Positions 1,897 to 5,197 of a stretch of 5,258 nt of DNA are shown one piece after another (position 1 is the stretch's first letter; each line of letters begins with the position of its first letter). Made by a program: the position numbers and the translations under genes. This DNA comes from an uncultured Clostridium sp. (GTDB taxonomy: Bacteria; Bacillota; Clostridia; Peptostreptococcales; Peptostreptococcaceae). The stretch covers positions 1 through 5,258 of the forward strand of contig USRS01000109.1 of assembly GCA_900557165.1 (NCBI GenBank), written 5' to 3'. Below the pieces are notes generated by a model. The model did no database searches, was not told where the DNA came from, and was given only the letters and a program-made list of their open reading frames with translations.

Positions 1897-2334
1897 TTAA
1901 TACTTTGATATATTACTTATTATTGTTTTAGTTTCTGACTTGCTTCCCTTATATGCCTTTGCTGTAGATACTACCCTATATTCATATCCTTTTAATACAT
2001 TAGCAGTTTTTGATAATGTACATGTTCTAGAACCTGTACTTGACCATGTTGAAATTGTAGTCCACGTATTATTTACTTTTCTTTGTAGGCTTGCTTTAAT
2101 TTCAGTTTTTGTAATACCCGTATTACCTGAAACAGTACATAATATACTAGCAATCCCTTTTGAGCTTATACTTATATTACTTTTTGAATTAGTAATATAC
2201 TCCATTAGTTCCATCGAATCATCTACTTCTTGGTATTCATCATATAAATTAACTTCATCTGCATATGATAGCAACGATGTAAACATAAATGATGATATGC
2301 ATATAGTTGATATTATTACTTTCTTAAAATTCAT
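1897..2334 (-). CDS. Small secreted protein, DUF6147-like
   Basis: The 145-residue product has a signal peptide (MNFKK, hydrophobic 7-22) with a likely cut after SYA at residue 25. An acidic stretch follows (26-48, DEVNLYDEYQEVDD), then a beta-rich domain at about 50-145. Its pattern (SISSKGIASI, LQRKVNNTWTTISTW, LSKTANVLKGYEYRVVSTAKAY) resembles the small exported clostridial family DUF6147; I am judging from memory of its look, with no profile search. C66 and C105 are the only cysteines of the mature protein and could form a disulfide. The start has a perfect AAGGAGG at 2340-2346, five T's before the ATG. That Shine-Dalgarno lies in one arm of an 18-base inverted repeat, and an ECF-type promoter is just upstream. 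The gene is therefore the most direct candidate target of the sigma factor encoded two genes upstream. Its biochemical function is unknown. Confidence 0.85.
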   Translation of the reverse strand: MNFKKVIISTICISSFMFTSLLSYADEVNLYDEYQEVDDSMELMEYITNSKSNISISSKGIASILCTVSGNTGITKTEIKASLQRKVNNTWTTISTWSSTGSRTCTLSKTANVLKGYEYRVVSTAKAYKGSKSETKTIISNISKY

Positions 2335-2336
2335 AA

Positions 2337-2391
2337 AAACCTCCTTATTATTTCTATTTTCACTATATATAACGAAATAATAAGGAGGTTT
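2337..2391 (-). repeat. Perfect 18-base inverted repeat hiding a ribosome binding site
   Basis: Bases 2337-2354 and 2374-2391 are exact reverse complements around a 19-base loop. In a minus-strand RNA reading through from the anti-sigma gene, the first arm (AAACCUCCUU...) pairs with GAAAUAAUAAGGAGG and buries the Shine-Dalgarno of the DUF6147-like gene. The stem has its GC-rich CCTCC/GGAGG end at the base and is followed by TTTTT, so it may also act as a weak intrinsic terminator for the sigma/anti-sigma operon. The first arm coincides with the spacer of the ECF-type promoter, so RNA begun at that promoter would not contain it. Confidence 0.85.
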
Positions 2392-2397
2392 GTGACA
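2368..2397 (-). promoter_or_regulatory. ECF-sigma-type promoter for the exported-protein genes
   Basis: The minus strand reads TGTCACA (2391-2397), exactly 16 bases, then CGTTATA (2368-2374). This matches the layout of known ECF promoters, and the elements are very close to the TGTCACA-16/17-CGTC consensus described for ECF41-group sigma factors. Transcription should begin near 2360-2363, giving a leader of about 25-29 bases. The sigma factor encoded nearby lacks the SnoaL-like extension of ECF41 but is the obvious candidate to use the site. I did not find the same bipartite motif elsewhere in the window. Confidence 0.7.
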
Positions 2398-2415: not shown

Positions 2416-3123
2416 TTATTTTATACTTTCCGCTATTTTTATCAATTCTTCTTTATCATTATTAATCATTTTAATATTTTTAGATTCCATATCAATTAAG
2501 TACGTTGATACTGAATCATTCCATACTAGCTGTTGAATATTATTTTTTACTATGTACTTAGCTTTATATCCATTTATGTTTATATCTTCTACTTGTGCAT
2601 CTTCTGTATCTAATATAATTGAGTTGTTACTTATCTCATCACAACTATATCTAATTTGTAAATATTCATCATTTTCATAAACTATAAATAATCCTATAGG
2701 ACTCTCTACTTTATCTATTTCCTTAAATCCTTTTGGAATATAATTAGGTAATGCAGGTTTAAATTTACTATCCACACTTACACTGTTATCTTCTTTTGAA
2801 AATATTATAGATGTAAATTCTTCATATATCTCAGTTATAACATTAATTACTTTTAATCTTACAGCATCTACACTCATAGATACTGTAAATAATCCCATAG
2901 TTATAATTAAAAATGTAACTGCTACCTTTTTTGAATATGAATATATAGACTTAATCATTGTATGTCTTTTTTCATATTTAATTAGCTTATTCATTTTACA
3001 TTTAAATTTATTTGAAAATTCATATTCTATATCTGATTCATTAGGCAAACTATCTAATAAATTCTGCTCTAATTTTTTACAACTTTTATAAAGTATTTCA
3101 TCTGTTATATCTAAATTATCCAA
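2416..3123 (-). CDS. Membrane anti-sigma factor with DUF4367-like domain
   Basis: The 235-residue protein has a cytoplasmic N-terminal part (1-64, with a helical FSNKFKCKMNKLIK stretch), one membrane segment (about 67-86, VAVTFLIITMGLFTVSM) and an extracellular C-terminal part. The segment just outside the membrane (VDAVRLKVINVITEIYEEFTSI) and residues 124-235 (LPNYIPKGF, then IRYS, INGYKAKYI, LVWNDSVSTYLI, IKIAESIK) follow the pattern of DUF4367 domains in Firmicute anti-sigma factors. The expected role is to hold the partner sigma factor at the membrane until an envelope signal arrives; the signal is unknown. No zinc-binding HxxxCxxC motif is present. The start is TTG at 3121-3123, overlapping the sigma gene end by 8 bases, with GGAGG 9 bases upstream; the next ATG is internal at about codon 44. 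Overlap implies translational coupling with the sigma gene. Confidence 0.85.
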   Translation of the reverse strand: MDNLDITDEILYKSCKKLEQNLLDSLPNESDIEYEFSNKFKCKMNKLIKYEKRHTMIKSIYSYSKKVAVTFLIITMGLFTVSMSVDAVRLKVINVITEIYEEFTSIIFSKEDNSVSVDSKFKPALPNYIPKGFKEIDKVESPIGLFIVYENDEYLQIRYSCDEISNNSIILDTEDAQVEDININGYKAKYIVKNNIQQLVWNDSVSTYLIDMESKNIKMINNDKEELIKIAESIK

Positions 3124-3658
3124 TACTATACACCTCCATTTTCTTTAATATATTTTTCAATTTTTCTCTTCCCCTAGATATTCTTTTCCTTACATTATCT
3201 GGTTTTATGTCAAGTATTTCACTTATCTCATTATCTGTTAATTCATGACTAAATTTTAATAAAAAAACTTGTTTATAGTTTTCAGGAAGTTTAGATATTG
3301 CAATTTCTAAATCCCCAATGTCATTTTTATTAATTTCATCATATCCATTAATATCATCTAAATCATCAATAAAAATAGTATTATCTCTTTCTTTTTTATT
3401 TTTTCTATATATATCAATAGATACATTCTTTACTATAATAACGATTAAACCTTTAGTTTTGTGACTATTAATATCTTCTATTTTTTCTAAATTATTTATT
3501 ATACGTAAAAATGCATTATGAACTGCATCTTCAGCTAGATGACTATCTTTTAGAATATTATTTGCAGTATAATACATTTGTTTTTTATATGTATTATAAA
3601 TTAGTTCAAATTTCGATATTTCTTCTTCTGAATCTAATAAACTTAAATATATTAACAT
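3116..3658 (-). CDS. ECF-type RNA polymerase sigma factor
   Basis: The 180-residue product has the two-domain layout of extracytoplasmic-function sigma factors. Region 2 spans about 17-86 (FELIYNTYKKQMYYTANNIL, then LAEDAVHNAFLRIINNL, and VKNVSIDIYRKNK for -10 recognition). After an acidic linker (95-115), region 4 spans about 116-171 (AISKLPENYKQVFLLKF, then the helix-turn-helix LTDNEISEILDIKPDNVRKRISRGREKLKNIL for -35 binding). There is no region 1.1 or 3 and no C-terminal SnoaL extension. It directs RNA polymerase to a small set of promoters when its anti-sigma partner, encoded by the next gene with an 8-base overlap, lets go. The ATG at 3656-3658 has GGAGGG 10 bases upstream. The promoter in front looks vegetative, so basal transcription appears independent of the sigma factor's own activity. 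I cannot assign a numbered ECF group from sequence reading alone. Confidence 0.93.
   Translation of the reverse strand: MLIYLSLLDSEEEISKFELIYNTYKKQMYYTANNILKDSHLAEDAVHNAFLRIINNLEKIEDINSHKTKGLIVIIVKNVSIDIYRKNKKERDNTIFIDDLDDINGYDEINKNDIGDLEIAISKLPENYKQVFLLKFSHELTDNEISEILDIKPDNVRKRISRGREKLKNILKKMEVYSIG
3133..3137 (-). promoter_or_regulatory. Ribosome binding site deciding the TTG start of the anti-sigma gene
   Basis: GGAGG lies inside the last codons of the sigma gene, 9 bases before the TTG at 3121-3123. No ATG or GTG in this frame is similarly placed, so the rare TTG is the best start. The arrangement probably couples anti-sigma synthesis to sigma translation. Confidence 0.75.
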
Positions 3659-5160: not shown

Positions 5161-5197
5161 AAAAAATAGAGCATTAAATTAATTTTCAATGCTCTAT
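5160..5197 (-). terminator. Intrinsic terminator of the upstream gene
   Basis: A 10-base stem (5188-5197 with 5166-5175, ATAGAGCATT) encloses a 12-base loop and is followed on the minus strand by seven T's (5166-5160). It lies 7 bases after the stop codon of the partial gene at the right edge and ends that transcription unit. Confidence 0.85.

Follow-up and report, generated by a model that had tools for sequence, protein, structure and literature searches.

The stretch of DNA analysed here (the window; 5,258 nucleotides from an uncultured Clostridium sp.) contains a long inverted repeat, one arm of which lies in the predicted promoter of a gene for a predicted secreted protein and the other over the ribosome binding site of that same gene. 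Given this arrangement, the question is what such a repeat could be for: a terminator, an operator, a regulatory RNA, or a device that keeps the gene silent unless its own promoter is used. All features of the element are found on the minus strand, and the genes follow one another in the order ECF sigma factor, DUF4367 protein and 145-aa protein, as follows.

3116..3658, minus strand: gene for an ECF-type sigma factor, 180 aa (Pfam Sigma70_r2 and Sigma70_r4_2; NCBIfam sigma70-ECF above cut-off)
2416..3123, minus strand: gene for a DUF4367 protein, 235 aa (Pfam PF14285, 69.2 bits)
2389..2397, minus strand: -35-like element TGTCACAAA of the predicted ECF promoter, from sequence
2375..2388, minus strand: promoter spacer, 14 nt, from sequence
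2374..2391, minus strand: 5' arm (anti-Shine-Dalgarno arm) AAACCTCCTTATTATTTC, the exact complement of the 3' arm, filling the promoter spacer
2370..2374, minus strand: -10-like element CGTTA, from sequence
2355..2373, minus strand: loop, 19 nt, from sequence
2337..2354, minus strand: 3' arm GAAATAATAAGGAGGTTT, covering the Shine-Dalgarno sequence
2340..2346, minus strand: Shine-Dalgarno sequence AAGGAGG, 5 nt upstream of the ATG, from sequence
2335..2339, minus strand: T-run TTTTT, directly 3' of the stem's GG, a terminator-like tail that is partly paired
2332..2334, minus strand: start codon ATG of the target gene, from sequence
1897..2334, minus strand: target gene, for a predicted secreted protein of 145 aa (signal-peptide-like N-terminus, read by eye)

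The DUF4367 gene shares 8 bases with the end of the sigma factor gene; its position, together with a hydrophobic stretch seen by eye in the protein, makes it likely that the product is the cognate anti-sigma factor. From the anti-sigma stop codon to the ATG of the target there are 81 bases, and the element occupies most of them. Named close protein relatives of the window genes include those of Terrisporobacter MAGs (78% and 82% identity). Downstream of the target, on the same strand, are genes for proteins of 335 aa (788-1795) and 155 aa (310-777), both predicted by eye to be exported or lipid-anchored; neither has a Pfam or NCBIfam family, and neither gave a tblastn match (E up to 1e-3) in the loci L001-L139 described below. 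Two other short-loop inverted repeats, at 211-243 (15 nt exact, loop 3) and 5166-5197 (13 nt at 92%, loop 6), are situated outside the gene group and resemble ordinary terminators.

The two arms are complementary without mismatch over 18 bases. An exact 18-base repeat with its arms in the promoter spacer and over AAGGAGG had been proposed in the sequence-only reading of this DNA, and both the coordinates and the shuffling analysis bear this out: in 200 dinucleotide shuffles of positions 2201-2500, with a loop of up to 60 allowed, the longest exact inverted repeat reached a maximum of 12 and a mean of 8.1 bases. The description of the first arm as lying within the spacer needs one refinement: the arm fills the 14-nt spacer completely, reaches three A back into the end of the -35 element and takes in the C with which the -10 element opens. 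Folding of the region (plus strand) gave -24.6 kcal/mol against -8.7 +/- 2.65 for the shuffles (z -6.0; 0 of 200 as low), and the minus-strand RNA from 2440 to 2320 folds at -25.3 kcal/mol with all 18 pairs formed. If transcription starts about 9-13 nt after the beginning of the -10 element, the position of that element predicts a start in the loop, at about 2365-2361, and the 5' arm would then be absent from the RNA.

We are fairly confident in reading the repeat as a predicted ECF promoter spacer that is complementary to, and coevolves with, the Shine-Dalgarno sequence of the downstream gene and that acts as a lock against read-through, the mechanism itself being a proposal. RNA running in from the sigma and anti-sigma genes would contain both arms and is predicted to fold the ribosome binding site away, while RNA started at the ECF promoter would begin in the loop, lack the first arm and stay translatable. 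Such read-through RNA presumably exists; no terminator was found in the window between the anti-sigma stop codon and the promoter. The mask would lower translation of the target, and at loci with a U-run behind the stem, transcription may also terminate at the hairpin. The net effect would be a secreted protein that depends on free ECF sigma factor despite its gene being placed directly behind the sigma factor operon.

The analysis was extended to relatives of the module. With an alignment of 21 DUF4367 proteins as the query, genome contigs yielded 37 loci and viral contigs another 4. When whole genomes were searched, 25 of 71 from the Clostridioides family contained DUF4367, and the alignment was matched in 63 of 391 genomes at the level of the class and in 61 of 297 at that of the order; loci were taken from the best 30 genomes or fewer in each, and plasmid and phage records were added. 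Removal of identical stretches left 100 distinct regions downstream of DUF4367-type genes. The adjacent gene was accepted by a rule blind to the hairpin, which called for a start codon 35-140 nt past the anti-sigma stop codon, a frame of 90-350 aa and a Shine-Dalgarno sequence; 53 of the 100 regions have such a gene, and 44 loci remained after the target proteins were clustered at 70% identity. The 47 regions without an adjacent gene by this rule include four with arms visible by eye (L006, L011, L050 and L081) and some distant or truncated matches with no remaining module. One locus with too short a gap (L019) entered the comparison of own and swapped arms at an energy of 0 and was omitted from later counts, and the viral-contig loci L038-L041 were read by eye only.

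In 47 of the 53 loci a three-round profile search placed the next gene in the family of the window's 145-aa protein. Neither this protein (Pfam and NCBIfam) nor six of its relatives (Pfam) matched a family above cut-off, and the family can be described as unnamed, predicted secreted proteins of ~145 aa with the consensus pieces ISxGKA, LQ....GxWxTI..WS and KGYxYR. ECF sigma factor, DUF4367 protein and secreted protein thus make up a three-gene module found in many Clostridia, the target of which has no Pfam name. Relatives of DUF4367 are also encoded on Clostridioides and Vescimonas plasmids (L042, L043, L104-L107), in phage records (L108-L110) and in the viral contigs L038-L041. In one C. difficile plasmid (L042) the target is followed by a gene annotated as a geobacillin-26 family protein, a neighbor that may indicate a link with bacteriocins.

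If the two arms are held together by RNA pairing, each spacer should fit the ribosome binding site of its own locus better than that of another. For each of the 44 clustered loci we calculated the best RNA duplex that the stretch lying 30-90 nt ahead of the start codon can form with the 24 nt immediately preceding that codon; the mean was -16.3 kcal/mol for own arms and -10.7 kcal/mol for arms swapped between loci (z -13.2), and own arms were better than swapped ones in 20,000 of 20,000 permutations. The signal is found in the spacer itself: for the 27 clustered target-family loci with a clear motif, the spacer alone (13-15 nt) gave -13.4 kcal/mol with its own arm and -9.2 when swapped (z -8.7; 0 of 20,000 permutations), and the same pairing test on flanking DNA gave nothing, with z 0.03 for the 15 nt upstream of the -35 element and z -0.04 for the 14 nt after the -10 element. 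The own spacer is the best or tied for its arm in 7 of these 27 loci and among the top three in 16; swapped pairs are also not weak, because all Shine-Dalgarno arms share a G-rich core.

The divergence of the arms can be followed by eye from spacer to ribosome binding site. The window has the pair AAACCTCC / GGAGGTTT, Clostridioides has AAACCACC / GGTGGTTT, Romboutsia timonensis (L010) has AAAACCTCCTAAAAATTTC / GAAATTTTTGGGAGGTTTT, and a Clostridioides phage (L108) has ATCACTTCTT / AAGAGGTGAT, which includes one U-G pair; the arms in a Clostridia MAG (L015) are AAAACTCCCCCC / GGGGGGAGTTTT. Across 29 loci, four to six pair types are present at most positions just outside the Shine-Dalgarno core. 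A MAFFT alignment of 27 of the 32 elements selected (L008, L047, L104, L105 and L024 were omitted) showed near-invariant columns at the TG of the -35 element, the GTT of the -10 element, the Shine-Dalgarno GG and the start codon; RNAalifold found 0 consensus pairs in this alignment, a result we ascribe to arms that slide within the spacer and to insertions on both sides. Because the arms slide, the comparison of own with swapped pairing was used and no covariance model was built.

Duplexes of at most -14 kcal/mol were found in 27 of 43 clustered targets and in 50 of 431 other genes (Fisher 2e-13), the latter being genes of the fetched loci with a gap of at least 40 nt and with copies of the element removed; irrespective of gap the background is 60/582 after this removal and 66/600 with the copies. 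The duplexes are at -18 kcal/mol or below in 20 of the 43 loci, and 16 of the 43 are without a strong hairpin (above -14 kcal/mol); weak or absent arms are seen in Faecalimicrobium and a relative (L001/L002), in L009 and L047, and in the Clostridioides group L104/L105/L070. One of the refuting outcomes named in the sequence-only reading was a loss of complementarity in orthologous loci; with compensating changes, and with the promoter motifs in place, the complementarity is kept in the loci with strong duplexes, the 16 others falling short of the cut-off, and the reading is supported by this test. Taken together, the own-versus-swapped tests and the range of pair types argue that the Shine-Dalgarno and spacer arms are under selection for pairing.

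The promoter motif is distributed unequally around the operon. Of 42 clustered loci, 26 have a match of at least 7/9 to the -35 element, together with a -10-like partner, behind the anti-sigma gene; upstream of the sigma factor gene an ECF-like motif is found in 5 of 42, each of them weak (7 of 9), and none was found upstream of the sigma factor gene in the window. For this reason the sigma and anti-sigma genes are probably transcribed from a different promoter, and their RNA could continue into the target when no sigma factor is free; the upstream operon itself appears not to use the promoter of the target. Autoregulation of the sigma factor from the same motif was accordingly set aside, the five weak upstream matches notwithstanding. 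Good ECF-like promoter strings also occur inside the sigma factor gene (L001 at 5656, L077 at 1164 on the minus strand, L156 at 1500), and these probably reflect a conserved peptide (SHKTKGL-like in the sigma factor of the window) and not a promoter.

When the -10 element was required to lie 13-15 nt from the -35 nonamer and 36-44 nt ahead of the start codon, 32 of the 53 loci passed; a conserved -35/-10 pair at near-fixed spacing beside a sigma factor gene, as is a feature of ECF promoters, is thus present. The motif could be placed in 49 of the 53 loci, and there the 5' arm mostly lies within the spacer and stops close to where the -10 element begins; the distance from the -10 element to the start codon is often 37-43 nt (range 23-74), and exceptions to the geometry are L047, L110, L128, L014, L102 and L089. 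The bare promoter pattern was dropped as a marker of the regulon, as it is not enriched genome-wide, with 41 matches against 61 for the backward control in 19 genomes. Four intergenic matches to the pattern (L149, L154, L170 and L171) have by eye no anti-Shine-Dalgarno spacer and are not counted as a control; none was accepted by the gene rule, and in both genomes of origin (G002, G054) the operon copies are either weak or rejected by that rule. With DUF4179, another possible anti-sigma family, none of the 7 next genes separated from it by 35 nt or more reached -14 kcal/mol, and at a gap of 21 nt one more gene scored -16.0; the sample comprises 28 frames of 30 loci, too few to call the lock special to DUF4367.

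The consequences for the ribosome binding site were examined by predicting how often it is unpaired in each form of the RNA. In the window, the Shine-Dalgarno core has a predicted unpaired probability of 0.00 in the read-through RNA and 0.62-0.73 in the promoter-started RNA; the medians over 38 clustered loci are 0.01 and 0.56-0.62, in a comparison that covered module loci only and in which the longer RNA has more partners anyway. The predicted value is below 0.2 in the long RNA in 30 of the 38 loci, with any pairing counted, and the site is more than 0.5 open in the promoter-started RNA in only 24 of the 38.

Several other explanations would account for parts of these observations. The hairpin might be only the terminator of the sigma/anti-sigma operon, the Shine-Dalgarno sequence being reused as its 3' arm and masking being a side effect; we consider this unlikely, while noting that it draws on real features of the loci. 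Among the loci with a strong hairpin, 15 of 27 have a T-run of four or more in the 8 nt that follow the Shine-Dalgarno sequence, as do 3 of 16 loci with a weak one and 8.8% of 431 other genes (p 8e-9 for strong loci against other genes); of 32 loci at or below -14 kcal/mol, 24 have a stem with a T-rich tail beside the start codon, loops of up to 40 being allowed. Pairing with the A-run of the -35 element may explain the T-run in part, some A's being paired opposite it in the folds of L101 and L133, but this is no explanation for L090 and the related pair L094/L095, where the T-run has no A's opposite in the 5' arm. At two loci a hairpin of another kind is found: L137, with a target outside the family, has an open Shine-Dalgarno sequence (0.92) and instead a short-loop hairpin with T8 across the -10 element, and L047 has a weak short-loop hairpin (-4.0 kcal/mol) just before the -35 element. 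Against termination as the sole function, 12 of the 27 strong loci have no such T-run, no terminator with a loop of 3-8 was found in the window between 2200 and 3820, and the loop here measures 19 nt; positions 1-5 of the Shine-Dalgarno core, moreover, are paired in 26-29 of 29 strong loci, which supports masking, albeit with a choice of 3' arm near the start codon that favors such pairing. Both outcomes named in the sequence-only reading, a hidden ribosome binding site and an end of transcription at the T-run, may apply; we read masking, termination or both as serving one purpose, that of stopping read-through expression.

Many DNA operators are inverted repeats, and this one overlaps a promoter, so that it might act as DNA, either as the operator of a dimeric protein or as a cruciform that tunes the promoter. 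This is improbable, as the arm sequence varies between loci and the complementarity stays, unlike in a protein site, and the strands are not equivalent: the sense duplex is the stronger in 25 of 32 loci and the antisense duplex in 4, and G-U outnumber A-C sense pairs by 44:12 in own arms against 588:355 in swapped ones (p 0.015, score >= 10), an excess that is not significant at the looser cut-off of >= 8 (55:19 against 1505:751, p 0.21). The pair ratio and the strength of the sense duplex modestly favor sense-strand RNA over DNA, with base composition contributing. Hairpins around the Shine-Dalgarno sequence are also a usual form of thermosensors and riboswitches; the long RNA could then be the regulated one, opening on a signal (temperature, ligand or small RNA) and being translated after read-through. 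We find this a shade less credible still, since there was no Rfam match at gathering score in the window, the near-invariant columns are promoter bases, Shine-Dalgarno GG and start codon and not a ligand pocket, and the stability of the 20 duplexes at or below -18 kcal/mol is very high for a switch. A repeat that arose by chance, or as a mimic of the 16S rRNA tail, hardly merits belief: the length of the repeat relative to the shuffles and the permutations of own and swapped arms both speak against coincidence, and although the arm contains ACCTCCTT, the 16S anti-Shine-Dalgarno sequence, arms elsewhere track their own partners and depart from 16S (ACCACC, ACTCCCCCC, ATCACTTC). The special weight that the sequence-only reading gave to this match is therefore not supported, as the likeness of ACCTCCTT to the 16S tail is a mere by-product of the match between the arm and its own AAGGAGGT.

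A read-through lock of the kind we favor has relatives among known systems. In IS10-type elements, external transcripts fold the start site of the transposase away and the RNA from the element's own promoter does not; protection against read-through is shared, but those are the ends of mobile elements, with no dependence on a sigma factor. Intrinsic terminators share the G+C-rich stem and, in the 15 strong loci noted above, the T-run; unlike in these, the 3' arm here doubles as the Shine-Dalgarno sequence of the downstream gene, promoter DNA supplies the 5' arm, and the loop is 19 nt long. The closest parallels are in phage T4, where long RNAs started upstream of gene e, soc, gene 49 and I-TevI hide the Shine-Dalgarno sequence and/or the start codon in a helix, and where, for gene e and I-TevI, the late-promoter RNA lacks the 5' strand and is translated; the structure in gene e lowers lysozyme about 100-fold, as cited there (PMC3014915, PMC2988022). 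As in gene e and I-TevI, the Shine-Dalgarno sequence of our element is predicted to be hidden in the long RNA, and its 5' arm lies in the spacer of a promoter predicted by motif, the RNA of which would lack that strand. The T4 leaders have phage late promoters; here the system is a cellular ECF one in which the -35/-10 spacer is taken up by the arm and the stem is often followed by a T-run, and the likely sigma factor of the promoter is encoded, with its likely anti-sigma factor, in the upstream RNA. In Bacillus subtilis, sigG follows the same logic, with a large read-through hairpin below spoIIGA-sigE (PMC5942855); that case concerns one sporulation gene, and here it is an ECF/DUF4367/secreted-protein module of many Clostridia in which covariation of spacer and ribosome binding site could be measured. 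In searches of the open-access PMC library, outside which most subscription papers lie, no title or displayed abstract among the papers listed described an ECF system of this kind or DUF4367. The logic of a read-through lock is thus already known from T4 e, I-TevI and sigG; new here are the placement inside an ECF promoter spacer, the T-run, the link to a sigma/anti-sigma/target module, and arms that covary across many loci.

It seems rather probable that one stretch of sequence serves as promoter spacer, as anti-Shine-Dalgarno arm and often as terminator stem, forming a conserved lock in Clostridia whose module is found in chromosomes, plasmids and phage contigs. Promoter spacers are usually regarded as weakly constrained filler. 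Where a spacer covaries with the downstream ribosome binding site, as it does here at many loci of one class of bacteria, its sequence can serve as a record of selection against read-through, and what had been single-gene precedents (T4 e, I-TevI, sigG) becomes countable and testable across many loci. A compact insulator of about 60 bases would tie a gene to its own sigma factor only, which would help in locating ECF targets in genomes and in the design of circuits. If the proposal is true, the target stands directly behind the operon of its own regulator and yet answers only to the free sigma factor, and promoter spacers of these Clostridia would be evolving under the rules of RNA pairing.
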